NCBI GenBank assembly: GCA_016870515.1
Contig: VGBL01000001.1
Coordinates: forward strand, 124,001 to 188,000
From: Actinomycetota bacterium
GTDB taxonomy: Bacteria > Actinomycetota > Actinomycetes > S36-B12
Reading direction: 5' to 3'
DNA length: 64,000 nt
Shown here one piece after another: positions 13,629 to 41,377 of the stretch. The position numbers and the translations under genes were made by a program. Position 1 is the stretch's first letter. The number at the start of each line of letters is the position of its first letter. Under the pieces are notes generated by a model, which had not been told where the DNA came from, made no database searches, and saw only the letters and a list, made by a program, of their open reading frames with translations.

Positions 13629-13645
13629 GTCCCACTTTGTGGGAC
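13629..13645. promoter_or_regulatory. operator-like palindrome 2, GTCCCAC-N3-GTGGGAC
   Basis: Perfect 7-base inverted repeat with a TTT spacer, followed by AAA so that the right flank mirrors the TTTG of palindrome 1. It ends 38 bases before the GTG of the Lrp gene, a position suited to autoregulation. Confidence 0.62.
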
Positions 13646-13683
13646 AAACGCGGTGGGGGCGCGGGGCATGTCAGGCTGCCCCC

Positions 13684-14127
13684 GTGGACGACGAGACCGA
13701 CCGCCTCCTGATCCGCCTCCTGGCGGCCGATGGGCGCATGTCGTTTGCCGACCTGGCCCGCGAGTCGGGCCTGTCGACCTCCGCCGTCCATCAGCGAGTA
13801 CGCCGCCTCGAGCAGCGCGGCGTGATCACCGGCTACGGCGCCCAGTTCGACGACCGACTGATCGGGCTTCCCCTCACCGCTCTCGTCGACCTGACGCCAC
13901 TCGACCCGGCAGCACCCGACGACATCCCCGAGCGCCTCGTCGACATCGCCGAGATCGAGTCATGCTGGTCTGTGGCGGGGTCAGCGTCGTATGTCGTGAA
14001 GGTGCGTGTGGCCGAACCCGTAGACCTTGAGGAGCTCCTTGCCCGGATTCGCGCCACGGCCGGGGTGTCGACGCGCACGACAATCGTGCTGTCCACACCC
14101 TTCGAGGGACGCGCACCCAACGTCTAG
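13684..14127 (+). CDS. Lrp/AsnC family transcriptional regulator
   Basis: A 147-residue protein with an N-terminal winged helix-turn-helix (DRLLIRLLAADGRMSFADLARESGLS, then SAVHQRVRRLEQRGVITGY) and a C-terminal RAM effector-binding domain (LTALVDLTPL, IESCWSVAGSASYVVKVRV, TRTTIVLSTPF). The RAM domain normally binds amino acids and drives oligomerisation. The start is set at GTG 13684 because the hexamer CAGGCT lies exactly six bases upstream and the next in-frame start is inside palindrome 2. Likely targets: itself and the divergent L,D-transpeptidase. Confidence 0.88.
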   Translation: MDDETDRLLIRLLAADGRMSFADLARESGLSTSAVHQRVRRLEQRGVITGYGAQFDDRLIGLPLTALVDLTPLDPAAPDDIPERLVDIAEIESCWSVAGSASYVVKVRVAEPVDLEELLARIRATAGVSTRTTIVLSTPFEGRAPNV

Positions 14128-14133
14128 GCGCAC

Positions 14134-15180
14134 CTACTCCTCGAAAAGCGGAATCACCGAGGTCGCGTCCCAGGCCACTCCCACGTCACTGCCTCGTGAT
14201 GGCAATACGTCGTCACGCACATTGGCGAGAAAGGCCACCTCGTCGACCTTCACGAGCGCAAGGGCGTGATCCCCCTGGAAGTAGACCTCCTGCACCGTCC
14301 CGAGACGCACAGCGGCAGCGTCTTCGGTCGCGGTCAGGCGGACAGCCTCGGGCCTGAGGGCAATGGCTATGGCCCCTGCGCAGTCAGCGCCCACAGCGAT
14401 GGCTCCAACGCCCACGGCCTGCCATGCACCGTCAGCGTATGTGCCCTTGAGGATGGTGCTCGACCCGATGAAGTCGGCCACGAAGATGCTGCGCGGACGA
14501 CGATAGAGGTCGAGGGGTGCATCGAGCTGGCGCACGATCCCCTCGTCCATCACAGCCACCCGGTCGGCCAGGCTCATGGCCTCATCCTGGTCGTGGGTGA
14601 CGACGACAAACGTGATGCCCACTTCATGTTGAAGTCGCTTGAGCTCGACCTGCATCTCGCCACGGATCTTGCGGTCAAGAGCGGAGAGCGGCTCATCGAG
14701 AAGCAGGAGCCGCGGGCGCTTCACGATGGCGCGGGCGAGGGCGACCCGCTGACGCTGCCCACCGCTGAGCTCACGTGGCAGCGATGAACGCTTGTCGGTC
14801 AGACCCACGGTCCGAAGGACCTCGTCGACCCGAACGCGGATCTCATCGCGCGGCAACCTCTCGCAGACGAGGCCGTAGGCGACATTGCGCTCGACGGTCA
14901 TGTGCGGGAAGAGCGCGTAGGACTGGAACATCAGGTTGACGGCCCGCCTCTCGGGAGGAATGGGCAGCAGGTCGACGCCATCGAGCGTGATCATGCCCTC
15001 ATCGGGCTGCTCGAAGCCGGCGATCACCCGCAGCAGCGTCGTCTTGCCACAGCCCGATGGACCGAGCAGCGCGAAGAACTCGTTTTCGTGGATCTCCAAG
15101 CTGACGTCGTCGAGAGCACGTATATCGCCGAACGAGCGGCTGACGCCGTGGATGTTGAGCAGCGGGGTGCCGGCGGTCAC
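14134..15180 (-). CDS. potA: polyamine/opine-type ABC transporter ATP-binding protein (PotA-like)
   Basis: A 348-residue ABC ATPase: Walker A GPSGCGKTT at residues 40-48, Q-loop in VNLMFQSYALFPHMTV, signature LSGGQRQRVALARA, Walker B LLLLDEPLSALD and H-loop VVVTHDQDEAMSLADR. A C-terminal TOBE-like domain (IALRPEAVRLT, VQEVYFQGDHALALVKV) is typical of PotA/FbpC-type importers. The GTG start overlaps the potC stop by four bases (GTGA). It energises the importer formed with the two permeases and the lipoprotein. Last gene of tetR-potDBCA. Confidence 0.9.
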   Translation of the reverse strand: MTAGTPLLNIHGVSRSFGDIRALDDVSLEIHENEFFALLGPSGCGKTTLLRVIAGFEQPDEGMITLDGVDLLPIPPERRAVNLMFQSYALFPHMTVERNVAYGLVCERLPRDEIRVRVDEVLRTVGLTDKRSSLPRELSGGQRQRVALARAIVKRPRLLLLDEPLSALDRKIRGEMQVELKRLQHEVGITFVVVTHDQDEAMSLADRVAVMDEGIVRQLDAPLDLYRRPRSIFVADFIGSSTILKGTYADGAWQAVGVGAIAVGADCAGAIAIALRPEAVRLTATEDAAAVRLGTVQEVYFQGDHALALVKVDEVAFLANVRDDVLPSRGSDVGVAWDATSVIPLFEE

Positions 15181-15965
15181 GGTCGCGCCTCCCTTCGACG
15201 AAGCGAGTCTCCCAAGCGGGACGTTCGCTGGATGAGCAGAACGGCAATGAACGACACGAGCAGCAGAAGGGTGGCCAGGGCATTGACCTGTGGTGTCACG
15301 CCAAAGCGCACGCTGGAGTAGATGACGATGGGCAACGTCGGGTCGGCAGGTGACGCGGTGAAGAACGCGACGGTGAACTCGTCGAGGCTTAGCGTGAAGG
15401 CCAGGAGCGCACCGGCAATGATCGCCGGACGGATGCCCGGAAGCGTGACGCTCCAGAAGGTCTTCAGGCTTGACGCCCCCAGGTCGCGACTGGCTTCCTC
15501 GAGGCTGGAGTCCATGCCTGCGAGGCGCACGCGCACCACGGCGGCGACGAACGCGATCCCGAAGACGGAGTGCGCGAGGATCACGCTGAAGGCCCCGAGG
15601 GTGAAGTTGACCAGCGTGTAGAAGGCGAGCAAGCCGATCGCAAGCATGATGTCGGGCATCACAGCGGGTGCGGCTGCTGCAGCGTCGAGGAACCGAGACG
15701 GGAAGTAGCGCTCGAGGGCCAGGGCGAGAAGAGTGCCGAGAATCACGGAGATCACCGTCGTGCCCGACGCCACGATGAGCGTGGTGCGTAGGCCTCCCAT
15801 GATGTCGGCGTCCTGGAGAAGCGCCGGATACCACTCGAGCGAGAAGCCGCTCCACAGGAACGGATTGTCGGAGGCGTTGAAGCTCATCACGATCACGACG
15901 GCGATGGGCACGTAGAGGAAGACGTAGAGCACCCACAGCGGAGCAACACCCATTGCGCGCCTCAT
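15177..15965 (-). CDS. potC: polyamine-type ABC transporter permease (PotC-like)
   Basis: A 262-residue permease with about six helices and the cytoplasmic EAA loop EEASRDLGASSLKTFWSVTLPGIRPAI, split here as EEASRDLGAS then LPGIRPAI, which contacts the ATPase. The N-terminal VLYVFLYVPIAVVIVMSFN is typical of PotC/YdcV. Its ATG overlaps the potB stop (ATGA); an internal ATG twelve bases later is less likely because of this coupling. Forms a heterodimer with the PotB-like permease in the cytoplasmic membrane. Confidence 0.9.
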   Translation of the reverse strand: MRRAMGVAPLWVLYVFLYVPIAVVIVMSFNASDNPFLWSGFSLEWYPALLQDADIMGGLRTTLIVASGTTVISVILGTLLALALERYFPSRFLDAAAAAPAVMPDIMLAIGLLAFYTLVNFTLGAFSVILAHSVFGIAFVAAVVRVRLAGMDSSLEEASRDLGASSLKTFWSVTLPGIRPAIIAGALLAFTLSLDEFTVAFFTASPADPTLPIVIYSSVRFGVTPQVNALATLLLLVSFIAVLLIQRTSRLGDSLRRREARP

Positions 15966-16843
15966 CAGGCACCCCACTTGCGCGAACGGCGCGCCGCGCT
16001 CGCCTGCAACATGACGATGATGACCAGCAGCGCGAGTACGAGCAAAGACAGGGCAGAACCGAACGGCCAGTCGCGGGACTTCAGGAACTGATCGCGAATC
16101 AGATTCCCGATCATCTGTGAGTTGCCGCCACCGAGGAGCTCGGGGATCACGAAGTTGCCCAGACTCGGGATGAAGACGAAGAGGCAGCCCGTGATGATTC
16201 CCGGCATCGTGAGCGGAAGGAGGATCGTGCGAAATCGACGCCACGGCCCGGCCCCGAGGTTGCAGGCAGCTTCGAGGAGCATTGAATCGAGTCGCTGCAG
16301 GGAGGCGTAGATGGGCAGGACCATCAGCGGGATGTAGGCGTAGGTGAGACCGAGGATCACCGCCTCGCGCGTGTAGAGGACCTCGATGGGCCCGAGACCG
16401 ATGAGCGCCAGTCCATCGCTCAAGATCCCCTCGCGATTGAGAAGCAGGATCCAGGCGTAGGTGCGGATGAGGAAGTTGGTCCAGAAGGGCATGACCACGG
16501 CGATCAGTGCAACGGTCTGCCAGCTCAGCGATAGGCGGGTGATTGCGAGAGCGGCCGGGAAGCCGATGAGGAACGCGATGAATGTCGCGAGCCCGGCATT
16601 GACCACGCTGGACGCCAGCACCTCAAGGTACAGCGGCTGGAAGAGCCGGGTGATGTTGTCAAGAGTCGCCGGGCCCTGCACGCCGCCGAAGCGGCCTGAG
16701 GTCAAGAAGGCGTAGGCGATGACGAGGCCGAGCGGGATGACCATGAGAACGAGCAGGTAGACAAGCGCCGGCACGCTGGAGAGTGCACGCAACAGGGGCC
16801 CGTCGCCGTGGCGACGGACCCCTGCTGACGTGCGTGAGGTCAA
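15965..16843 (-). CDS. potB: polyamine-type ABC transporter permease (PotB-like)
   Basis: About 292 residues with six predicted helices (PALVYLLVLMVIPLGLVIAY at the N-terminus) and the EAA loop EAACNLGAGPWRRFRTILLP. The most likely start is TTG at 16843, because it overlaps the potD TGA as TTGA in the same way that the next two junctions overlap as ATGA and GTGA. Longer in-frame reading would lie wholly inside potD. Works with PotC as the translocation pore. Confidence 0.85.
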   Translation of the reverse strand: MTSRTSAGVRRHGDGPLLRALSSVPALVYLLVLMVIPLGLVIAYAFLTSGRFGGVQGPATLDNITRLFQPLYLEVLASSVVNAGLATFIAFLIGFPAALAITRLSLSWQTVALIAVVMPFWTNFLIRTYAWILLLNREGILSDGLALIGLGPIEVLYTREAVILGLTYAYIPLMVLPIYASLQRLDSMLLEAACNLGAGPWRRFRTILLPLTMPGIITGCLFVFIPSLGNFVIPELLGGGNSQMIGNLIRDQFLKSRDWPFGSALSLLVLALLVIIVMLQASAARRSRKWGA

Positions 16844-17958
16844 CTCGCTTGAACCTCGGTGGCGATCTGCTGGTAGATCTTCGACGCGGCGCCGAGGTCG
16901 ATCAGGCTCTCGCCCTTGGCCAGATCTGCCGGCGTCATGGCGATGTTGGGGAAGTCCGCCCCAAGTTCCGCCGCCGCCTTCTCGGCAATCGTCTTGTTGG
17001 GGCTCTTGTAAAGGATGTTGTTGGTCATCCATGACTGCATCTCATCGCCGATCATGAAGTTGATGTAGGCCATGGCAGCTTCCTTGTTCTTGCTGGACTT
17101 CAGCACCACCATCGTGTCGGCCCACAGGTCGGCACCCTCGGACGGCACCACGAACTTCACGTTGGGATCGCCCGAGTAGTTGCACCAACCATCCCACGCA
17201 ACGGCCATGACGACCTCACCAGCAGCCAGGCGGCTGTAGAAGGTCACGTCATCGAAGCCCAGCAGAGTGGGCTTGGTCTTGAGCAGTTGCTGCTTGATCT
17301 GCTCGAGCTCACCCTCGTCCGTGGTGTTGGCGCTGAAGCCGAGTGCCTTGGCCGCGGGCAGGTTCAGCCACGGCTGGGTCGCCAGCATCAGCGTCTTCTT
17401 CTCGTATTCGGGCGCCGGATTGAGCAAGTCGTTCCACGAGGTGGGCGCGGCGGCCATGAGGTCCTCTCGGTAGCAGATGCCCGTCGTACCCCAGGCGTAG
17501 GGAACGCTGAACGTGCTGCCCGGATCGAACGACAGGTTCTTGCTCTCGGGGTAGAGGTTGGCCATGTTGGGCACGAGACGTGGATCGATCGGCTCGAGCA
17601 GCCCGGCCTCATTGAGCGCCTGGGCATATTGGCCCGACACGAAGGCCACATCGATGCCCGGATCGCCACCCGCGGTCAGTTTGCCGACGATCTCCTCGTT
17701 GGTCGCATGCTTGGCGACCGTGATGTTGGCCTTCGTGGTGTCAGTGAACTTCAAAGCAACGTCCGGATCCATGTAGGCATCCCAATTGCTGACGACGATC
17801 GACTGCTTGCTCAGATCGGCGCTGGGGTCAAGCGACGGAGAGGGACTTGCATCTCCGCCTGAGGATCCGCCACCGCATGCGGCCAGGAGGACGGCACAGA
17901 CCGCTCCCGCGATGCCGAGGACGGAGGCCCGACGGGCCCGTGTCCGCTGTGTTGCCAT
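16840..17958 (-). CDS. potD: polyamine-type ABC transporter substrate-binding lipoprotein (PotD-like)
   Basis: A 372-residue lipoprotein: basic N-terminus, hydrophobic stretch and lipobox LLAACGGG with Cys28, a Ser/Pro/Asp-rich linker, then a type II periplasmic-binding fold of the PotD/PotF class (VVSNWDAYMDPDVALKF, FSVPYAWGTTGICYR, AVAWDGWCNYSGDPNVKFVVPSEGA). It presents the ligand, likely a polyamine or a related cationic amine, to the PotBC pore outside the membrane. The ATG at 17958 has an AGGAGAGAAGGAG ribosome site. It follows tetR by 29 bases, so both are probably in one transcript. The ligand is inferred from family only. Confidence 0.9.
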   Translation of the reverse strand: MATQRTRARRASVLGIAGAVCAVLLAACGGGSSGGDASPSPSLDPSADLSKQSIVVSNWDAYMDPDVALKFTDTTKANITVAKHATNEEIVGKLTAGGDPGIDVAFVSGQYAQALNEAGLLEPIDPRLVPNMANLYPESKNLSFDPGSTFSVPYAWGTTGICYREDLMAAAPTSWNDLLNPAPEYEKKTLMLATQPWLNLPAAKALGFSANTTDEGELEQIKQQLLKTKPTLLGFDDVTFYSRLAAGEVVMAVAWDGWCNYSGDPNVKFVVPSEGADLWADTMVVLKSSKNKEAAMAYINFMIGDEMQSWMTNNILYKSPNKTIAEKAAAELGADFPNIAMTPADLAKGESLIDLGAASKIYQQIATEVQAS

Positions 17959-17987
17959 CTCTTCTCCTTCTCTCCTGTGACGCTGCG

Positions 17988-18668
17988 TCACGAGGACTGC
18001 TCGCGACGACTCAATTGGATTTCGGGGAGGTGCCTGAGATCGACTCCCAGTTGCTCGCACGCAAACGAGCGAATGAGGCCGCGAACCCGCCCAAGAGGGG
18101 TCCACGAGTAGCCGACGACCGTGCGGAAGCACAGGCCATCGACCATGGCGCTGATGCGTTCGGCCACCACCTCTGGCTCTCTCAGGGGGGTGAAGACACC
18201 TGCGCGCGTGCCCTCCTGGACGAGCTTCACGAGTTCGTCGCGGTAGTCAGCGGCGAGCTCCTCGCAAAGTGGCTGCAGCGATGCATCGTGCGTCGCCGCC
18301 GTCCAGAGTTCGAGCCAGAGGACGTACTCGTCGTAGAGCACGCCCGGATGGGGAAGGCTGACCTCGAGGAGCGTGGCCAGCACCGTGAGGTAGTCGCCAT
18401 CGCGACGAAGCGCAGCGAAGCGCTCCGCGGGCCTGCCGATCGCCCAGCGCAGGGCGTCGACGAGCATCTCGTCCTTGCTGCCGAAGTAGTAGTGCACGAT
18501 GCCGGTCGACACCCCGGCCTCGACGGCTACGTCGCGCACGCGCATGCCCGCCGAGCCGTCGCGCACCAGGACCCGCGCTGCTGCGGCCATGAGGTGCTCA
18601 CGACGGTCGAGGGCATCATCCGCCGACAGATTCGGCGGAATGGCCACCGACACATCCATGAGCGCCAT
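17988..18668 (-). CDS. TetR family regulator of the pot operon
   Basis: A 226-residue TetR-type repressor. The N-terminal helix-turn-helix is VRDVAVEAGVSTGIVHYYFG near residues 45-64, followed by SKDEMLVDALR; the C-terminal ligand domain resembles BetI-like regulators (LWLELWTAATHD). The gene heads the potDBCA operon, so ligand-dependent control of the transporter and of itself is likely. The perfect palindrome at 18686-18699 lies just upstream of a TACAGT hexamer eight bases before the ATG, a good position for repression. Confidence 0.88.
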   Translation of the reverse strand: MALMDVSVAIPPNLSADDALDRREHLMAAAARVLVRDGSAGMRVRDVAVEAGVSTGIVHYYFGSKDEMLVDALRWAIGRPAERFAALRRDGDYLTVLATLLEVSLPHPGVLYDEYVLWLELWTAATHDASLQPLCEELAADYRDELVKLVQEGTRAGVFTPLREPEVVAERISAMVDGLCFRTVVGYSWTPLGRVRGLIRSFACEQLGVDLRHLPEIQLSRREQSS

Positions 18669-18685
18669 ACCTTGGGACTGTACTG

Positions 18686-18699
18686 ACTGGACGTCCAGT
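18686..18699. promoter_or_regulatory. 14-bp perfect palindrome ACTGGACGTCCAGT, probable TetR operator
   Basis: It sits in the 59-base gap between the divergent tetR-pot operon and the saccharopine-dehydrogenase-like operon. Sequence and symmetry (GACGTC centre) resemble many TetR-family operators. It is placed to control both directions. Confidence 0.72.
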
Positions 18700-18727
18700 T
18701 GGGACCAGAAACCGGGAAAGGACCCCC

Positions 18728-19897
18728 ATGCGGATCGGTGTCGTCGGCGGCGCGGGGGCCATGGGCTCGGCCACGGTTGCCGACCTAGCGGGCTCCCCCG
18801 GTATCACCGAGGTCGTCATCGTCGATCCCGATATCGAGCGCGCCCGCGCCCTTGCCGAGCGTCTCGACGAACGTGGGGCAGCGCTCGTCGCGCGCGGCAT
18901 CGACGCACCCCTCGCCGTCAGCCTCGCCGACTGCGCTGCCGTGGTAAATGCCTCCGGCCATGCCCACAACATCGCGGTCATGGAGGCCTGTCTCGAAATG
19001 GGAGCGCACTACACCGATCTCGGCGGCTTATTCCACGTCGCTGTGCGTCAATACGACTGGCATCAACGCTTTGTCGATGCTGGGCTGACGGCCACGCTGT
19101 CGATGGGCTCGGCTCCCGGCCTCACCAACCTCATGGCTGCGCGCGGAGTCGAACTCGGGCAACTCGACACCGTCGAGTCCATCGAGATTGCCGATGCCGT
19201 CGTACCCGGCCGGCAGTACCACCCCTCGGAGCCCTACGGCCCGCCGTATGCCGCGCTGACCCTCATCGAGGAATACACCGCTCCCGCGCCGCAATTCGTC
19301 GATGGTGCCATCGGTTTCTTCCCGGCAGGGTCGGGAGCCCGCACCTACGCCTTCCCCGGCGGAGAGGTGGAGTGCGTCTACACGATCCACTCCGAGCCGG
19401 CCACCCTGCCGAGGTCCTACGCCGACCGCGGGATCAAGCGAGTCGAATGGCGACTAGGCCTCGCCCCGGCCGACCACGTGCGACTGCTGTCCTTCGTGGC
19501 CTCGGGGCTGGCCAGTGAGGAGCCGGTGGTCGTCGACGGCGTGAGCGTCCGTCCTGCCGACGTGCTGATCGCTGTGTTGGGCCGCCAGGCACGTGCCGAT
19601 GCCCCAACGCCTGATCCCGATGCGGTGGAGTGGTTCCGGGTCATCACCACAGGCTCGCGCGATGGTGCCCAGGTCACCGTGACATGCGACGTGAAGGTGA
19701 CCGACCCGCCGTCCGGGGAGTTCTCCGGTGGCGCCTGGGTGACCGGCGTACCGCCGTCGATCGCCGCCCAGATCATGGCCTCGGGCCGAGCCCTGCGCAC
19801 CGGCGTCCACGGACCCGAGCTCACCATGCCCCTTGACCTCTTCTTCACCGAACTTGCCGGGCGGGGCATGATCCCGCTAGATCAGATCGACGACTGA
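18728..19897 (+). CDS. saccharopine dehydrogenase-like NAD(P)-dependent oxidoreductase
   Basis: A 389-residue protein with an N-terminal Rossmann motif (MRIGVVGGAGAMGSATVADL) and the family features VVNASGHAHNIAVMEACLEMG split over residues 77-97, then YTDLGGLF and GSAPGLTNLMA. This family forms or splits secondary amines between amino acids and carbonyl compounds (saccharopine, carboxynorspermidine and opine-like products). The ATG has GGAAAGGA five bases upstream. First of four same-strand genes (next: glycosyltransferase, SIS protein, kinase) and divergent from a polyamine-type importer, which suggests a role in amine or opine metabolism (inference). Confidence 0.82.
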   Translation: MRIGVVGGAGAMGSATVADLAGSPGITEVVIVDPDIERARALAERLDERGAALVARGIDAPLAVSLADCAAVVNASGHAHNIAVMEACLEMGAHYTDLGGLFHVAVRQYDWHQRFVDAGLTATLSMGSAPGLTNLMAARGVELGQLDTVESIEIADAVVPGRQYHPSEPYGPPYAALTLIEEYTAPAPQFVDGAIGFFPAGSGARTYAFPGGEVECVYTIHSEPATLPRSYADRGIKRVEWRLGLAPADHVRLLSFVASGLASEEPVVVDGVSVRPADVLIAVLGRQARADAPTPDPDAVEWFRVITTGSRDGAQVTVTCDVKVTDPPSGEFSGGAWVTGVPPSIAAQIMASGRALRTGVHGPELTMPLDLFFTELAGRGMIPLDQIDD

Positions 19898-19910
19898 CCG
19901 CGGAGGCACC

Positions 19911-21203
19911 ATGGCTGATCGACCCCTCACTGTGCTCCTAGCCGCCGAGAGCGCCTACGGCCCCACCAACAACTGCATCGGTATCGGCGCCGAGCTCATC
20001 AAGATGGGGCACCGAGTCGTCTTTGCCGCCGAGGAGTCCTGGGCCGGCAAGATCGAGCCACTCGGCATCGAGGAGCGGCTGGTCTCGATGGCTCCCCCGC
20101 CCGAGGAGGAGGCAGCCGCCGGCCAGTTCTGGATCGATTTCATACGCGATACCTCTCCGGAGTTCCGCAAGAGCACGTTCGACCAGATCACGACGTTCAT
20201 CGAGCCTGTTTGGCGCAGCCTCATGGATGGTGCGAAATACGCAAACCCGCAGTTCGCCGCGATCGTCGATGAGATTGCCCCCGACATCATCGTGCAGGAC
20301 AATGTGTCGGCCTTCCCCGCCCTCATGGCGACCGGCCGGCCTTTCGTGCGGCTCGTGTCATGCCAACCGCTCGAGATGACCGGTCCCAAGCTCCCTCCCG
20401 CGCTGGCCGGACTCCCCGCCGACGACTCAAGCCAATGGCAGGCGTGGCGCGATGAATACGCGCGCATCAATGCTGGCGTGTGGGCCGAATACAACGAGTT
20501 CTCGCAGGACTCAGGTGCCGGGCCTCTGCCCGCGGGCGAGTTCAACTACGTCGGCGATGCCAACGTATACATCTACCCCTCGGTCGTGGATTACGTCGAT
20601 CGGAGACCGCTCGACGCTACCTGGCATCGGGTGCAGTCATCCGTGCGCCGCACCGAGCTGCCGATCGACGTGCCCGCTCACATCCTCGAGGGTGAGGGAT
20701 CCCTGGTCTACCTCTCGCTCGGTTCGCTCGGCGGAGCAGACATCGACCTCATGAAGCGACTCACCGGCTTCCTGGCCGACAGCCCCCACCGCTTCATCGT
20801 CAGCAAGGGCCCGCGTGCCGATGAGTGGGAATTGCCCGACAACATGTGGGGTGCGGGCATGGTGCCGCAGACCACGCTTCTAGACAAGGTCGACCTCGTC
20901 ATCACGCACGGAGGCAACAACACCACGTGCGAGTCCTTTCACTTCGGCAAGCCCATGGTCGTCCTGCCGCTCTTCTGGGACCAATACGACAACGCCCAGC
21001 GCATCGACGAGACCGGCTTCGGAAGGCGACTGGACACCTACCGTGTCGAGAAGGCGGAGCTCAACTCCGCAATCGACACGCTCCTGGCAGACACTGCCCT
21101 TCGCCAACGCATGTCCGAGATCTCTCGTCAAATCCGGGCTGAAGACGGAGTTAAGCGCGAAGCCGAGATCATCGCCGACCTGGGGAAGTCAACGGCACGC
21201 TGA
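19911..21203 (+). CDS. GT1-family glycosyltransferase (UGT/MGT-like)
   Basis: A 430-residue GT-B-fold enzyme. The N-terminal acceptor domain starts LTVLLAAESAYGPTNNC; the C-terminal domain has VYLSLGSLGG near residue 268 and the donor-binding signature THGGNNTTCESFHFGKPM followed by LPLFWDQYDNAQRI. These match UDP-glucuronosyl/macrolide-type transferases that glycosylate small molecules from a nucleotide sugar. The ATG has GGAGG four bases upstream. Only 13 bases after the oxidoreductase and overlapping the SIS gene by one base (TGATG), so one operon. Acceptor unknown. Confidence 0.85.
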   Translation: MADRPLTVLLAAESAYGPTNNCIGIGAELIKMGHRVVFAAEESWAGKIEPLGIEERLVSMAPPPEEEAAAGQFWIDFIRDTSPEFRKSTFDQITTFIEPVWRSLMDGAKYANPQFAAIVDEIAPDIIVQDNVSAFPALMATGRPFVRLVSCQPLEMTGPKLPPALAGLPADDSSQWQAWRDEYARINAGVWAEYNEFSQDSGAGPLPAGEFNYVGDANVYIYPSVVDYVDRRPLDATWHRVQSSVRRTELPIDVPAHILEGEGSLVYLSLGSLGGADIDLMKRLTGFLADSPHRFIVSKGPRADEWELPDNMWGAGMVPQTTLLDKVDLVITHGGNNTTCESFHFGKPMVVLPLFWDQYDNAQRIDETGFGRRLDTYRVEKAELNSAIDTLLADTALRQRMSEISRQIRAEDGVKREAEIIADLGKSTAR

Positions 21204-22150
21204 TGAAGCCTGACCTGTTCGAGCAGGATCTGCTCGACATCCCCGCACGGCTCAACCAGCTGGCGGATCGACTCGATGTCGATGACCCGTGGGCGCCCCT
21301 GGCATCGCACGGCGCACTGCTGACCGGCATGGGGTCATCGCAGTACGCCGCCCGGACGGCTGCCGGCTGGCTTCGGCACCGCGGAGCCTCCGTCACCGAC
21401 GAGATCGCCACAACCGATCCCGGCTGGCCGGGCGGTCCCGGCACGAGCGCGATCCTCATCTCCGCATCCGGCGGATCCGCCGAGACACTCGACCGCGCCA
21501 GCCGTCTTGCCGAGGGCACTCAACGTGTTGCGCTCGTCAACACCATGGATTCGGCCCTAGCCCGCCGGTCGGATGCGCTGATCACGATGCACGCGGGTCC
21601 TGAGCCGGGCGAGGTCGCGTGCCGCACCTACCGCCACACGATCGCCCTGCTGCTCGCCCTGGCTTTCCCCAGATCAGACATCGCCACCGCCTGTCGTGCC
21701 GCTGCGCAGCACACGAGCGCCTTGCTCGCCGACACTTCATGGCTCGATGCAATCGACGAGATCCTCACGCCCACGCAGACGACGTACTGGATCGCACCGG
21801 AGAATCGCATCGGGTCCGCGCTGCAGTCAGCGCTCATGATGCGAGAGGTACCCCGACGCCCGGCGGTCGGATGCGAGACCGGGGACTGGAGCCACGTCGA
21901 CGTCTATCTCACCCTGACCACCGAGTACCGATGCGTTGTCTTCACCGGATCGAGCTGGGACTCACAGGCCGTGGACTGGCTGACGAAGCGCGGCTCGCAT
22001 GTGGTCAGCATCGGCGACGCACTCGGGGTGCCCGGCGAGTTCAACGTGGCCATGCCGGGCAATCCCTTCGCGCGCATGCTTTGCGAGACCCTCATCGCCG
22101 AGCTTCTGGCCCTGCGATGGTGGCGAAGAGACCCCATCGAGGCGGCATGA
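21203..22150 (+). CDS. SIS-domain protein (GlmS/FrlB-like sugar isomerase or deglycase)
   Basis: A 315-residue double-SIS protein. The first SIS half has LLTGMGSSQYAARTAAGWL and ILISASGGSAETLDRA; VALVNTMDSALARRSDALI and HAGPEPGEVACRTYRH follow the pattern of the isomerase half of GlmS, without a glutaminase domain. Such stand-alone proteins act on phosphosugars as aldose-ketose isomerases, deaminases, or deglycases that split fructosamine 6-phosphates. It overlaps both neighbours (TGATG upstream, ATGA downstream), so it is made together with the glycosyltransferase and the kinase. Confidence 0.82.
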   Translation: MKPDLFEQDLLDIPARLNQLADRLDVDDPWAPLASHGALLTGMGSSQYAARTAAGWLRHRGASVTDEIATTDPGWPGGPGTSAILISASGGSAETLDRASRLAEGTQRVALVNTMDSALARRSDALITMHAGPEPGEVACRTYRHTIALLLALAFPRSDIATACRAAAQHTSALLADTSWLDAIDEILTPTQTTYWIAPENRIGSALQSALMMREVPRRPAVGCETGDWSHVDVYLTLTTEYRCVVFTGSSWDSQAVDWLTKRGSHVVSIGDALGVPGEFNVAMPGNPFARMLCETLIAELLALRWWRRDPIEAA

Positions 22151-23379
22151 CCCTCCTGGACGAGATCCGATCCGACCTGGGCCGAGCCTCGACCGATGCC
22201 CTCGTCCCCGTCCTCCGGCATGGCCAGCTTCCGGCGATCGTAGAGATCACCGACGTTTCCGCTTTGGCACCTGGCTTTGCTGTCGCTGCCGTCCGGCTGA
22301 CGGACTCCCGCGAATTCTTCGTGCCGCTCGTGCGCGACCGGCATTGGCGTAGGGCCGAGTCCGGCGACGGCGCTAGCCTGGCCGCCCTCGATGCACCGGC
22401 ACCGATCGTGGTGGAGCGCCTCAATCCGTTGCCCGTCGTCACCACCGGCCGTGAGCGCGCGGTCGACGTCGACATGACCAACGATGTGCGCGTCATCGCC
22501 GACTCGGTCGTCGCCAAGTGGCAGTTCCTGCGCCAATCGGGATCACTCATCGGTCCTCGCGTGGTGTCACATCTGTGGGCCGCTGGTTTCGGCGACCTTC
22601 CGGAGCCATTCGCCACGGTGTGCTGGAACGACGACCTCCTGGTGTCCTTCGCGAGATTCCTCCCGGGAGCCGAGGACGGGTGGGAGTGGATGCTCGACGA
22701 TGTCGGCCGGATGCTTGCCGGGGAGGCACCCGCGCCTTCGTGGCCGGAGGTAGTCGGCCAACTAGCCGCTCGGATGCATGCCGCCGCCGTTCGCCCGACC
22801 CGAGTCATCGATCGCCCGGTCGAGCGCCGCTCGCTGGCCCCCTTCGCTCACCACTACCGGGCGCTTCTTGACTCGACCCTCGACGACGAGTTGCGGGTGG
22901 CGGTCGAGCGCTGGTGTCCGCGATTCATTGATGCGTGCGACACATTGACTGCCGCAGATGACGTCGAAGTCATACCCATTCATGGAGACCTGCATCCCGG
23001 TCAATTCCTCCGATGGCGTGATGGCATTGCCATCTGCGACTTCGACGGCAACCCCACTCTTCCCGCACACCTACGGACCCTTCGAGGACCCACCGCGCAG
23101 GATGTCGCGGGCATCCTGCGAGGGCTCGATCACGTGGCGATCGCGGCCGCCCACCGCACGGGCGAGTCGGCGGCGCTGGGACCAGCCCGTGAGTGGGCCC
23201 GCGATGCGCGAGGCAGGGCTTTATCGGCGTATCGCCGTGAGCCGGGCGTTCCCGCCCTCGACGAGTCGGTGCTAGGCGCCCTCGAGACGTTGTCGCCCCT
23301 GCACGAGGCGGTCTACGCCACGACCTACCTGCCGCGCTGGCGCTACGTCCCCCTGGCGGTGCTTGACGGAGACTGGTAG
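22147..23379 (+). CDS. maltokinase/glucosamine-kinase-like phosphotransferase
   Basis: A 410-residue kinase of the aminoglycoside-phosphotransferase fold. An N-terminal cap domain (residues 1-90, with SREFFVPLVRD) resembles that of actinobacterial maltokinases and glucosamine kinases. Lys124 in VVAKWQ is the likely ATP-contact lysine, DGWEWMLDD at about 178 lies in the sugar-binding region, and the catalytic segment is IHGDLHPGQFL (Asp281) with ICDFDGN (Asp298/300). Likely phosphorylates a sugar or amino sugar that the overlapping SIS protein then converts. Last gene of the operon; ends two bases before the convergent lyase gene. Confidence 0.78.
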   Translation: MTLLDEIRSDLGRASTDALVPVLRHGQLPAIVEITDVSALAPGFAVAAVRLTDSREFFVPLVRDRHWRRAESGDGASLAALDAPAPIVVERLNPLPVVTTGRERAVDVDMTNDVRVIADSVVAKWQFLRQSGSLIGPRVVSHLWAAGFGDLPEPFATVCWNDDLLVSFARFLPGAEDGWEWMLDDVGRMLAGEAPAPSWPEVVGQLAARMHAAAVRPTRVIDRPVERRSLAPFAHHYRALLDSTLDDELRVAVERWCPRFIDACDTLTAADDVEVIPIHGDLHPGQFLRWRDGIAICDFDGNPTLPAHLRTLRGPTAQDVAGILRGLDHVAIAAAHRTGESAALGPAREWARDARGRALSAYRREPGVPALDESVLGALETLSPLHEAVYATTYLPRWRYVPLAVLDGDW

Positions 23380-23380
23380 C

Positions 23381-24418
23381 TCAGGCGCCCATCTCGCGAC
23401 TGATGGCCGCCACGAACCCATCGACGTCTGCGGGCGTCGTATCCCATGAGCACATCCACCGAACTTCACCGGTGCGCTCATCCCACTCGTAGAAGCGATA
23501 GTGCTGCTGCAGCCGGGCCGTGACATCGCGTGGCAGGTAGGCGAAGACGGCATTGGCATCAACTCGTCGAGCGATCGTGATGCCGGGGATCTGCTTCACG
23601 CCTTCAAGGAGCCTCTGTGCCATCGCATTGGCATGCGAAGCGTTGCGGCGCCACAGATCGTCGGTGAGAAGAGCGCACAACTGGGCACTGACGAAGCGCA
23701 TCTTACTGGCCAACTGCATGGACGACTTGCGCAGGAACGGCACCGCATGCGCAAGACCCGGATCGAGCACGACCACGGCCTCGGCTCCCAGCGCACCGTT
23801 CTTCGTGCCTCCCAGCGAAAGGATGTCGATGCCCACGTCGGTCGTGATGGCGCGGAGGTCCACGTCGAGCCCGGCAGCCGCATTTGCCAGGCGTGCCCCG
23901 TCGAGGTGGACCTTCATGCCCAGTCCGTGCACATGATCGGCGAGCCGACCGAGCTGCTCGGGGCAGTAAGCAGTGCCCAACTCCGACGACTGCGTCACCG
24001 TGACTACCGCCTGCTGAGAACGATGGACGTCACCGGATCTCACCGCGTGCACATCGATGGCGTCGGGCGTCAGCAGTCCATCCACTGTCGGTGTCGTCCA
24101 TAGCTTTAGGCCCGCCATCTTCTCGGGCGCCCCGCCTTCGTCGACGTTGATGTGCGCGGTCTCCGCGCAGATGACTGCTTCCCACGGGCGGCAGATGGCC
24201 GACAGGGCAACGACGTTGGCTCCCGTGCCATTGAGGGCCGGGAAGACCTCTGCCTGTGCACCGAAGTGCTCGCGCACGAGGTCGGCAAGGCGCGCGGTCT
24301 CGTCGTCCTCGCCGTAGGCGACAGCGTGCCCGGCGTTGGCCCGCACGATCGCATCGAGGACCTCCGGATGTGCCCCGGCGTAGTTGTCACTGGCGAAGCC
24401 GCGCCAGGAAGTCGACAT
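23381..24418 (-). CDS. threonine-aldolase-like PLP beta-eliminating lyase
   Basis: A 345-residue fold-type I PLP enzyme: NGTGANVVALSA (cofactor phosphate contact), ETAHINVDEGGAPEK (ring-stacking His89 region), VHLDGARLANAAA with Asp173, and SLGGTKNGALGAEAVV where Lys206 would bind PLP. The pattern is that of low-specificity threonine aldolases, which cleave beta-hydroxy amino acids to glycine and an aldehyde. The start at 24418 has GGAGG six bases upstream within the SDR gene, whose stop is one base away. Third gene of an operon with DUF6421 and SDR, so its real substrate may be specialised. Confidence 0.85.
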   Translation of the reverse strand: MSTSWRGFASDNYAGAHPEVLDAIVRANAGHAVAYGEDDETARLADLVREHFGAQAEVFPALNGTGANVVALSAICRPWEAVICAETAHINVDEGGAPEKMAGLKLWTTPTVDGLLTPDAIDVHAVRSGDVHRSQQAVVTVTQSSELGTAYCPEQLGRLADHVHGLGMKVHLDGARLANAAAGLDVDLRAITTDVGIDILSLGGTKNGALGAEAVVVLDPGLAHAVPFLRKSSMQLASKMRFVSAQLCALLTDDLWRRNASHANAMAQRLLEGVKQIPGITIARRVDANAVFAYLPRDVTARLQQHYRFYEWDERTGEVRWMCSWDTTPADVDGFVAAISREMGA

Positions 24419-24419
24419 C

Positions 24420-25094
24420 TCAGGCCTCCGTGAGATCCATACGCGTGCCGTTGGGCACGTCACCGTCGACGATCCCACGGATGGCCGCCGCGAGGTCGGA
24501 GGTATCCGAGTAGCCCTTGAAGGCCTTGTCGGGGTCGCTGGCTCGCATGCTCTCGTCGACCAGCGCCATGACTGCCACGATCGCCGCCCGCGCCTGAGTG
24601 TCCTTGAAGGAGTTGGCGAGCCCGCCCACCCAGGTCTCGGCGGCCGCCTTAGCCGTGGCATAGGCGACATTGCCCGCCGTGGGCTTTGCCGACGACGTGC
24701 TCGAGACCATGACATAGCTACCACCCGACGCAACGAGCGCGTCACGAAAGGTGACGCTCGTCGTGCGGACGGTGCCGAAGACTCCCGGTGCGATCGAATT
24801 CCAGGCTTCGAGCGCGGTCAGGTCAACCGTCTTGGAGCCCTGCCATCCACCCACGAGGTGCACGACGGCATCGACCCGGCCGTGTCGAGCGATCACATCG
24901 TCGCGGAAGCGAATCACTTCATTGACGTCGAGCAGGTCAACGACAACCGCCTCGCCGCCGACAACATCGGCCGCTGCCTGTGCGAGGTCCTCACAACGAT
25001 CGACGACGATCACCAGATGGGTGGCGCCGAGGGCCTTCGCCACGGCGCGACCACCCATTCCCGCGCCCAGCACGACGGCAACGGACCCGTTCAT
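24420..25094 (-). CDS. short-chain dehydrogenase/reductase (SDR)
   Basis: A 224-residue single-domain SDR. The cofactor motif is VVLGAGMGGRAVAKAL, a variant of TGxxxGxG; VVHLVGG replaces the usual NNAG; the active site is Ser131/132, Tyr145 and Lys149 (YATAKAA). Acidic residues after the second strand (VIVVDR) suggest NAD preference. Substrate unknown. It overlaps the upstream DUF6421 gene by four bases (25091-25094) and is followed after one base by the lyase gene, so the three are translated as a unit. Confidence 0.85.
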   Translation of the reverse strand: MNGSVAVVLGAGMGGRAVAKALGATHLVIVVDRCEDLAQAAADVVGGEAVVVDLLDVNEVIRFRDDVIARHGRVDAVVHLVGGWQGSKTVDLTALEAWNSIAPGVFGTVRTTSVTFRDALVASGGSYVMVSSTSSAKPTAGNVAYATAKAAAETWVGGLANSFKDTQARAAIVAVMALVDESMRASDPDKAFKGYSDTSDLAAAIRGIVDGDVPNGTRMDLTEA

Positions 25095-38918: not shown

Positions 38919-39527
38919 TCATCCCCTTCTTACCGGTGTCAGGCCGAGGGAGCCGGCCCACAGTGCTGTGAGTGTCGCGACCGCGATGTCTTCATCGTGG
39001 GTCTCGCCGCGGCCAAACCAGTGACGGGCAAAGCCCTCGACCATCGCGCACAGCGCCGCCGCGGCGGCATGCGCATCGAGATCGGTGCGCGCCATGCCCT
39101 CGTCCTGCAGGTGGCGCAGTGTGGCGGCCACCCGATCGACGTGCGCCTTGCGCAGGCCGGTGAGCACAGAGCGGAAGGACTCATCGGTGGTCGCCGCCTG
39201 CTCCACCACCTCGAGGAGTCGAGCGTTCGCTCGATAGGCGTCGAGGTAGGACCGATTGGCGCGCTCGATGCGTGATACCGGATCGGAATCGTCCGGCGCG
39301 CTGAGCGAGGCATAGAGTTCGCCGACCAAAGACTCGACGACGGCCATGAGCACGGCCTCCTTGGTGGAGAACCAGGTGTAGACGGTGCCGTGGCTGACCC
39401 CGGCCGCTTCTGCAAGGTCGCTCATGCGCGTGCCGTCGTAGCCGCGCTCCTCGAAGACTCCGCGAGCGGATGCGACGAGCGCATCGCGGGTGCGACGACC
39501 GCGGTCGGTGAGCGGGACGGCGCTCAT
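38919..39527 (-). CDS. TetR family regulator of the acyl-CoA operon
   Basis: A 202-residue TetR-type repressor with the helix-turn-helix MSDLAEAAGVSHGTVYTWF near residues 35-53 and STKEAVLMAVVE after it. It is embedded between atuA (four-base ATGA overlap) and the acyl-CoA dehydrogenase gene. Its likely operator is the perfect palindrome at 45023-45042 in front of the first gene of the operon, and the ligand is probably a CoA thioester of the pathway (inference). Confidence 0.88.
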   Translation of the reverse strand: MSAVPLTDRGRRTRDALVASARGVFEERGYDGTRMSDLAEAAGVSHGTVYTWFSTKEAVLMAVVESLVGELYASLSAPDDSDPVSRIERANRSYLDAYRANARLLEVVEQAATTDESFRSVLTGLRKAHVDRVAATLRHLQDEGMARTDLDAHAAAAALCAMVEGFARHWFGRGETHDEDIAVATLTALWAGSLGLTPVRRG

Positions 39528-41377
39528 GCGAGATCAACCTTTGCGTCCGGGAGAAGATGGCGGGGGACAGGAACAATGCGCGATCGCAGGTGCTCTCCGA
39601 GGCCCTTGGCCTGCGGGTCGCTGCGCGCGTTCTCCCCCACGCCGCGGCCGAGCAGTCCGTGGATGACGATATTGACGGCATGCAGGTTGGGCAGGGGGTG
39701 CACGTCGATGGCAAGTAGGGCCGCCTCAGGCAGCAGTTCGCGTACGCGATCGGGCGTCAGGAGCGAGACAAGCCAGGCGTAGACCTCATCGCGAAGTGGC
39801 ATGGCGGCGGGAATCCACGCGCCGATGTTGGCGTCACCGCCCTTGTCGCCACTGCGCGCACCCACGACCACTCCGAGAGGGACGCCGAGCACCGAACTCT
39901 CGCGCACCTCGGGCAGGGCCACGGCTGGCGCGTCGACCAGCACCGACGTCTCGCTGCGCAGGTAGCTCGCGACCGGCACCGCCTGGCCGTCGACGGTTAC
40001 ACTCGCCGGCACTGCCGCACGGTTGACCGTCGTGGGCCAGTAGACGCCGTAGGGGCTGCCCTCGCCGGGCGGCGCCGTCGGGAACATCCCGGGATAGGAG
40101 GCGAGCGTCGCTTCGATCACCGCGGTGGTGAAGGGCTTGGCCACCGCCTTCAGATCGCTGTCGCGCACCGTGATGCGCAGGAAGGACTGCGCCTGGTCGG
40201 CCGTCGCCGGATCGATGTAGGAAGTGGGAGACCAGTCGACATCGAGCTCGCGCACGGACAGCGACGAGCGAGTTGCGCGCGTCGACGCGGAGAGGCCCGG
40301 CTCCAGGGCCTCGGCCAGGGACAGGCCGGTAATGGTGCGCAGTGCCAGGTCGGCCTTGGCGTCGGGATCCAGCCCGGTCATCACCAGCGTCATGGAGTTG
40401 CGGAAGCCACCGAGGTAGTTGGCAGCGACCTTGAGCCGCTCGGGGGCGCTCTCGCCGCGCACACCCCAGATGCGCACCCGATCGTCCCCCTCCTGCGCGA
40501 GTTGGATCGTGTCGAAGCGCGCGGTCGCATCCGGGTTTGCGTAGGCGCGGCTGCCGATCTCGTAGAGCAACTGCGCGGTGACGGTGCCCACGGTCACCAC
40601 GCCGCCGGTGCCCGGATGCTTAGTGATGATGCTCGAGCCGTCGTCGGCGACCTCCGCGATGGGGAAGCCGGGATGGAGCAGGTTCAGGCCCTGGAAGAAG
40701 GAGTAGTTGCCGCCAGTGACCTGTGCGCCGCACTCGATGGCGTGCCCGGCCACGATCGCTCCGGCAAAGCGGTCCAGTGCCGACGGATCTCCGGCCGCGG
40801 CATCGGCGTACGACCAGCCGTGCCACCACGCCGCCGGGCCGACGACGAGAGCGGCATCGGTAACGCGCCCAGTGATGACGACATCGGCACCTGCGGAGAG
40901 CGCCGCCGTGATCGGCTCGCCACCGAGGTAGGCGTTGGCGGTGATGAAGTGCACGCCGTCGGGGAGTTCGCGGGTATCGAGGTTGCGCCACTCCTCGTCG
41001 AGCGCGCCCATGCGGGGCATGAGGTCATCGCCCGTGACGACCGCCACGCTCACCGGGCCGATGCCGAGGCGCGCGATGATCTCCGACAGCGCGTCGGCGC
41101 ACCCCTGGGGATCAAGTCCTCCCGCATTGCTCACGACGCGGATGCCCTTGTCACGACAGGTGCCGAGCACCTGCTCCATCTGCGCCAAGAAGGTGCGTGC
41201 GTATCCGGCACCCGGTCCATGCTTCATGCGCTGCCGAGCGAGGATGAGCATGGTGAGTTCGGCGAGCCAGTCTCCGGTTAGCACATCGATAGGACCGCCA
41301 TCGACCATCTCGCACGCGGCGCTGAGGCGGTCACCGAAGAATCCACTGCCGTTGGCGATGATGATCGGCCGGCTCAT
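39524..41377 (-). CDS. atuA: AtuA-like protein (acyclic terpene utilisation family, DUF1446)
   Basis: A 617-residue protein of the AtuA/DUF1446 family: the N-terminal IIANGSGFFGDRLSAACEMV, GGLDPQGCADALSEI, GADVVITGRVTDAALVVGPA and ECGAQVTGGNYSFF are family landmarks. In Pseudomonas atuA is required for growth on citronellol/geraniol, with an undefined biochemical role; it accompanies the geranyl-CoA carboxylase genes. Homologues also occur beside methylcrotonyl- or propionyl-type carboxylases, so terpene use is only one option. Overlaps the biotin carboxylase gene and the tetR gene by four bases each. Confidence 0.87.
   Translation of the reverse strand: MSRPIIIANGSGFFGDRLSAACEMVDGGPIDVLTGDWLAELTMLILARQRMKHGPGAGYARTFLAQMEQVLGTCRDKGIRVVSNAGGLDPQGCADALSEIIARLGIGPVSVAVVTGDDLMPRMGALDEEWRNLDTRELPDGVHFITANAYLGGEPITAALSAGADVVITGRVTDAALVVGPAAWWHGWSYADAAAGDPSALDRFAGAIVAGHAIECGAQVTGGNYSFFQGLNLLHPGFPIAEVADDGSSIITKHPGTGGVVTVGTVTAQLLYEIGSRAYANPDATARFDTIQLAQEGDDRVRIWGVRGESAPERLKVAANYLGGFRNSMTLVMTGLDPDAKADLALRTITGLSLAEALEPGLSASTRATRSSLSVRELDVDWSPTSYIDPATADQAQSFLRITVRDSDLKAVAKPFTTAVIEATLASYPGMFPTAPPGEGSPYGVYWPTTVNRAAVPASVTVDGQAVPVASYLRSETSVLVDAPAVALPEVRESSVLGVPLGVVVGARSGDKGGDANIGAWIPAAMPLRDEVYAWLVSLLTPDRVRELLPEAALLAIDVHPLPNLHAVNIVIHGLLGRGVGENARSDPQAKGLGEHLRSRIVPVPRHLLPDAKVDLA

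Follow-up and report, generated by a model that had tools for sequence, protein, structure and literature searches.

In Escherichia coli, the substrate-binding protein PotD of the PotABCD importer holds spermidine through Glu36, Glu171 and Asp257, which contact its three nitrogens (PMC4096761), and in Streptomyces coelicolor polyamine genes have been described at SCO5666-5671 (PMC5403932). The glucosamine kinase of Streptacidiphilus jiangxiensis (SjGlcNK) belongs to another setting, being closely associated with genes for a SIS protein and a GT1 glycosyltransferase (Manso et al. 2019, PMC6520443). The characterised kinases of this type phosphorylate free glucosamine, with a Km of 8 mM, and carry the GlcNK signature Q-x2-RE-x2-YA-x3-LP-x-W; Q405 of SjGlcNK was reported to confer glucosamine specificity (PMC6520443). 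We have analysed a 64-kb stretch of an Actinomycetota genome (contig VGBL01000001.1, positions 124,001 to 188,000; hereafter the window) in which genes for a TetR-type regulator and a PotABCD-type importer (tetR-potDBCA) lie back to back with genes for a saccharopine-dehydrogenase-like protein (SDH; gene sdh), a GT1 glycosyltransferase (GT), a SIS protein and a kinase. Our comparison suggests, with a probability of about 0.4, that this locus is one functional system for importing and breaking down one particular small amine, cationic and probably other than a free polyamine, by the route set out below. That the genes serve one shared amine-catabolic system appears likely on comparative grounds, and the exact chemistry of the route is doubtful.

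Linkage and co-occurrence, a shared alteration of the PotD pocket, a missing histidine in the GT and the fold families of the enzymes were established by comparison. The sequence-only reading of this DNA had described nine genes in two divergent units (tetR-potDBCA and sdh-GT1-SIS-kinase) around one palindrome, and we have confirmed the genes, their positions and the arrangement; the palindrome is a perfect one of 14 bp. Its family assignments were borne out by domain matches, the kinase being placed by homology to glucosamine kinase 6hwj instead of Pfam. The joint occurrence of the two units was found far beyond this genome. Within the window genus, three other genomes carried the complete block in one uninterrupted piece, and in a further three it was incomplete or distributed over several contigs; the kinase was missing from four other genomes. 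In the sister genera, the order TetR-GT-kinase-SIS stood beside potDBCA in nine of ten loci, with PotD proteins 51-60% identical to that of the window. These loci had no sdh, and most of them carried a flavin adenine dinucleotide (FAD)-dependent oxidoreductase and/or an aminobutyraldehyde dehydrogenase close by.

We have also searched a sample of 397 genomes of the phylum, with a threshold of 1e-60 for the GT and of at least 197 bits against profile A1 for the triad-type kinase (the next kinase group below 197 bits appears to include maltokinases). The GT was present in 40 of the 396 genomes other than that of the window. A triad-type kinase was present in 11 other genomes, all of which had the GT (p ~3e-12, ignoring phylogeny). 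An FAD oxidase gene lay 48-127 bp from the GT gene at loci of several separate lineages (L042, L107, L110, L114 and L123), and an aldehyde dehydrogenase gene 48-287 bp from it at six (L040, L094, L104, L105, L113 and L162). Nonomuraea had SIS-kinase, potDBCA, TetR, GT and aldehyde dehydrogenase together. Beyond the phylum, Rhizobiaceae and Ruegeria plasmids carried clusters of GntR, potDBCA, two GT paralogues, two EutQ-like cupins and an aldehyde dehydrogenase, and most of the Rhizobiaceae records held a saccharopine dehydrogenase 31-33% identical to that of the window. As a separate observation, two 6-Mb genomes of the same class (L106 and L109) had the GT-kinase-SIS triad beside phosphotriesterase-like and acyl-CoA-ligase-like genes, with no importer.

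The palindrome between the two units, ACTGGACGTCCAGT, is not rare by its length alone, since the GC-rich window contains 11 perfect 14-bp palindromes. It gained significance because the 25-bp block around it, GTACTGACTGGACGTCCAGTTGGGA, was the same in each of the six genus members that could be read at that spot. When up to three mismatches were allowed, the site occurred once in the genome and no further copy was found elsewhere in it. Such conservation together with a single genomic occurrence is what a dedicated operator would show, likely one through which one TetR-type regulator would govern the locus.

The two operons might nevertheless be adjacent by chance. The GT of the window sits on a long stem and sdh is absent from the sister-genus loci, so that part of the second operon may have been acquired. 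A chance arrangement, which we consider highly improbable, is contradicted by linkage that recurs in two phyla, and the conserved shared operator and the co-occurrence of kinase and GT also speak against it. Because the GT stem is long (0.85, outside the GT clade of its own family), the kinase signature is altered and sdh takes the place that the FAD oxidase module occupies in the sister genera, the window genus holds a divergent and possibly acquired version of the system.

The importer has the complete PotABCD architecture, with a substrate-binding protein, two permeases and a TOBE-type ATPase in one operon. The sequence-only reading had called it polyamine-type, which did not hold for the ligand, as the pocket has lost two of the three acidic residues by which E. 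coli PotD binds spermidine: at E36, E171 and D257 (E. coli numbering) the window PotD has A, W and D. D168 is replaced by T, and most of the aromatic box is retained. Among 21 GT-linked PotDs from two phyla, Glu171 was replaced by Trp and Asp168 by Thr in every one, and Glu36 was retained in none: 20 have Ala, Gly or Leu there and the remaining one Asp. All 21 kept Trp34, Tyr37, Trp229, Asp257 and Tyr293, and 20 kept Trp255. The alteration reads as remodelling more than loss, because new acids were found near the site, with Asp at position 35 in many of the proteins, that of the window included, and at position 211 in every one.

These 21 proteins had been picked for their linkage to the GT, and an unselected scan of the phylum is the fairer measure. 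In that scan, made over the same genome sample with the window PotD at 1e-55, five other genomes matched, four of which had the GT within 4 kb. The altered PotDs formed one clade (support 100/99), with one further member in genome G186, where no GT was present on the 9.4-kb contig. An acid at position 171 was kept in importers that lack the GT and stand beside the same enzyme types (L142, L148 and L150), and also at L110, which has a GT nearby but a different PotD. Because the pocket is altered in the GT-linked PotDs and the scan links this type of PotD to the GT, free spermidine or putrescine is probably not what the importer takes up. In G186 (L176, contig C209, 774-3629), a carbamate-kinase-like open reading frame (ORF) lies close to the altered-pocket PotD and its permeases, and this locus may help to identify the ligand.

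The closest solved relatives of the GT were the spider-mite enzymes UGT203A2 (E 5e-70) and UGT202A2 (E 5e-58), with YjiC and macrolide transferases more distant. YjiC and the mite enzymes retain GH at the N-terminal motif (AFGHVN, GPGHLN, AYGHVN), whereas the bacterial family of the window GT lacks the histidine. This residue, expected near the N terminus of a GT1 O-glycosyltransferase, was replaced by Pro or Ala (GP or GA) in 59 of 59 readable bacterial family members, with GP in the window and a conserved Glu preceding it. In GT1 enzymes, hydroxyl acceptors are activated by this histidine, which acts as the base. A family without it would fit an acceptor that needs no base, for example an amine; this N-transfer reading draws on general GT1 chemistry and, in part, on plant N-/O-glucosyltransferase mutants.

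Another role for the GT would be that of a detoxifying conjugation enzyme, which masks a toxic amine or aldehyde arising from ordinary polyamine breakdown while the kinase and the SIS protein recycle the sugar. GT1/MGT-type enzymes often inactivate small molecules, and the GT is solitary in many genomes. The changed pocket of the GT-linked PotD clade, however, suggests a special ligand and not ordinary polyamines, and the histidine of the related O-transferases is absent throughout. Detoxification seems improbable to us as the function of the locus.

The kinase gave no Pfam match, and its nearest solved relative was glucosamine kinase 6hwj (E 4e-42 over residues 29-403). It has a D-x-H catalytic loop (HGDLHPGQ) and stands beside an AgaS/GlmS-like SIS protein and a GT1 enzyme, as in the described triad, with overlapping genes in the window. 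It scored 194 bits against NCBIfam NF041273, which has a curated cut-off of 550, and a scan of genome contigs for the kinase gave two close relatives only. Where GlcNK has its signature, the kinases of the window and of three genus members read SPLHEAVYA..YLPRW, with S in place of Q and H in place of R. The sister-genus kinases match the signature and keep Q and RE, with S for A in some and T for P in one. The SIS protein, as modelled (predicted local distance difference test score, pLDDT, 91), folds like the GlmS isomerase domain and like a glucosamine-6-phosphate deaminase, and the motif ETGDW[SN]H[VI]DVYLT was conserved in 17 homologues. PADLOC gave no match for the GT or the kinase, and a defence role for either was dropped. 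Within the genus, the kinase diverges far faster than its neighbours (57-65% identity versus 82-95% for SDH, GT and PotD), and its catalytic loop reads HRDLH or RRDLH in some members.

These families would also suit aminosugar salvage, in which the importer takes up glucosamine or a glucosamine-bearing compound, the kinase produces glucosamine 6-phosphate, the SIS protein deaminates or isomerises it and the GT builds a secondary product. The homology of the kinase to GlcNK, the SIS fold and the glucosamine kinase activity reported along with the triad (PMC6520443) favour this explanation, and glucosamine, being a cation, might be accommodated by a pocket in which a single acid remains. Yet the glutamine behind glucosamine specificity is missing from the window kinase, the Km was measured at 8 mM (PMC6520443), genes for the synthesis of nucleoside-diphosphate sugars were not seen in the locus and the alphaproteobacterial clusters have importer and GT with no recognised kinase or SIS protein. 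Salvage would moreover give no reason why FAD oxidase, aminobutyraldehyde dehydrogenase and SDH recur, and we regard it as unlikely.

A kinase and a SIS fold would likewise be expected if a conjugate made elsewhere (a glycated amine, an Amadori compound or an opine) were imported, phosphorylated and cleaved by the SIS protein as by FrlD/FrlB or FraD/FraB, with SDH oxidising the freed amine. Kinase and SIS-domain deglycase are an established pairing for Amadori compounds (Frl/Fra), and the altered PotD pocket fits a non-polyamine; a distant PotD relative is the opine-binding protein MotA (5l9g). Such a route, however, gives no role to the GT, although this is the most constant partner even where kinase and SIS are absent, and the window kinase is not of the FrlD type. 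We have therefore considered this explanation quite unlikely.

The SDH model (pLDDT 89) matched the fold of 4ina, 8h4z, 8deb and 3abi, which are carboxyspermidine, lysine and saccharopine dehydrogenases, a group whose members form C-N bonds of amines or oxidise them. Relatives of SDH elsewhere in the phylum adjoin other PotABCD importers, aldehyde dehydrogenases and aminotransferases, so that this type of enzyme repeatedly accompanies amine import. Carboxyspermidine biosynthesis was ruled out as its primary role, since it scored 32 of 800 bits against NCBIfam NF043000 (carboxynorspermidine synthase) and TIGR01047, the family of the partner decarboxylase NspC, had no match anywhere in the genome. 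For the FAD oxidase of the related loci, phmmer found no PDB relative at 1e-10, and a profile search yielded only glycine oxidases and L-amino acid deaminases. A second amine cluster is present on contig C3 of the same genome (L142, 5494-15985), with potCBAD and an acidic PotD pocket; it also holds a pyridoxal-phosphate (PLP) aminotransferase, a carboxynorspermidine-synthase-like SDH paralogue, an FAD oxidase and an aminobutyraldehyde dehydrogenase.

In the route that we infer, including its substrate, its direction, the order of its steps and every reaction, the importer with its non-standard pocket would bring in a small cationic amine. The GT, devoid of the usual histidine base, would move a sugar from a uridine diphosphate (UDP)-sugar onto the amine nitrogen. 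SDH would then oxidise the C-N bond on the side of the carbon skeleton, which would leave as an aldehyde while the nitrogen stays on the sugar; in most relatives, an FAD amine oxidase and an aminoaldehyde dehydrogenase would act instead of SDH. Finally, the kinase would phosphorylate the aminosugar and the SIS protein would deaminate it to hexose phosphate and ammonia. The sugar would serve as a recyclable carrier, by analogy with the gamma-glutamyl group in the Puu pathway. The family evidence agrees with import and oxidation of an amine, with transfer of a sugar and with phosphorylation or deamination of an aminosugar, as the sequence-only reading had in part suggested.

Several observations weigh against this route. 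The missing histidine could instead reflect another base, a binding role or a non-catalytic protein, and many GT homologues are solitary or accompanied by kinase and SIS only, so that the GT is not limited to the importer context. Acidic residues elsewhere around the pocket of the altered PotDs, such as D211 and, in the window protein, D35, could hold a polyamine in a different way. FAD oxidase and aldehyde dehydrogenase are missing from the window locus, their homologues (50% identity each) being those on contig C3. Kinase and SIS were not recognised in the alphaproteobacterial clusters, which must clear the sugar by other means. A GT1 enzyme would yield a 1-amino sugar, with C1 bearing the nitrogen, whereas the characterised relatives of the window kinase phosphorylate 2-amino-2-deoxyglucose, in free form; their Km of 8 mM leaves room for a natural substrate other than glucosamine.

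The proposal of an undescribed amine route in two phyla, combining the importer, the histidine-less GT and an oxidase or dehydrogenase via an N-glycosyl intermediate, with the sugar as a nitrogen carrier cleared by kinase and SIS, is a tentative one. The sequence-only reading had put the locus forward as a possible undescribed pathway, which appears to hold for the whole gene set but not for the GT1-SIS-kinase triad, already known and with a kinase characterised in relatives (PMC6520443). In the open-access literature, we found no paper describing the whole set and nothing relevant on polyamine N-glycosylation. Two findings appear to be new within the literature searched: in two phyla the triad is linked to amine oxidation and to an importer with a modified PotD, and the GT family lacks its usual histidine. 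Overall, comparison appears to make a strong case, which would give the orphan triad a metabolic setting beyond antibiotic clusters, in amine uptake and oxidation. It also identifies a PotD clade, usually annotated as spermidine/putrescine-binding, that probably has another ligand, and offers a testable case of a GT family that dispenses with the usual base, as would fit amine acceptors.

Both units are tightly packed, with overlaps at GT/SIS, SIS/kinase, potA/potC, potC/potB and potB/potD (Table 1). The kinase probably starts at the ATG that overlaps the SIS stop by 4 bp, and the start of the longest ORF (21619) is unlikely. In genus members the locus is bordered by an Lrp/AsnC regulator gene beside potA (13639-14127) and a PLP aldolase gene convergent with the kinase (23381-24421), and both may be part of it. 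An AtuA-domain protein (acyclic terpene utilisation family) is encoded further away in the window, at 39524-41377.

Table 1. Genes and likely operator of the locus, in window coordinates.
Feature	Coordinates	Strand	Basis or remark
potA, ABC (ATP-binding cassette) ATPase with TOBE_2 domain	14134-15180	minus	ABC_tran and TOBE_2; potA-type, below equivalog cut-offs
potC, ABC permease	15177-15965	minus	BPD_transp_1
potB, ABC permease	15965-16843	minus	BPD_transp_1
potD, substrate-binding lipoprotein with altered pocket	16840-17958	minus	SBP_bac_8
tetR, TetR/BetI-type regulator, gene 1 of the importer operon	17988-18668	minus	family match
Likely operator, 25-bp block GTACTGACTGGACGTCCAGTTGGGA	18678-18702 (ends approximate)		encloses palindrome 18686-18699
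sdh, NAD(P)-dependent amine dehydrogenase, saccharopine / carboxyspermidine / lysine dehydrogenase fold	18728-19897	plus	Sacchrp_dh_NADP and Sacchrp_dh_C
GT1 glycosyltransferase, ESAYGPTNNC replacing the usual GH motif	19911-21203	plus	EryCIII/UDPGT
SIS protein, GlmS-isomerase / glucosamine-6-phosphate deaminase fold	21203-22150	plus	SIS domain
Aminosugar kinase, relative of actinobacterial glucosamine kinase	22147-23379	plus	homology to 6hwj

Compared with the spermidine/putrescine importer PotABCD, the window importer has the same four-subunit architecture and keeps D257 and most aromatic contacts, but replaces E36, D168 and E171. SDH shares its fold with carboxyspermidine, lysine and saccharopine dehydrogenases at about 18-20% identity. 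With FrlD/FrlB and FraD/FraB, the locus has in common a kinase followed by a SIS-fold phosphosugar enzyme, but its kinase is of an unrelated family and a GT is present. The GT1-SIS-GlcNK triad (Manso et al. 2019, PMC6520443) has the same three families side by side, with a kinase homologous to SjGlcNK, whereas that work places it in secondary-metabolite clusters and its main text contains neither "spermidine" nor "saccharopine". A gamma-glutamyl-polyamine ligase or hydrolase was not recognised, by homology and by reading of the genes, in the window locus or the sister loci, the regions covered by this search. As in the Puu pathway and SCO5666-5671 (PMC5403932), importer, FAD amine oxidoreductase and aminoaldehyde dehydrogenase come together in the sister genera, the window locus having neither enzyme and the genome their homologues on contig C3; what sets the locus apart from Puu is that GT and kinase/SIS stand where the ligase and hydrolase would, next to an importer with an altered PotD pocket.

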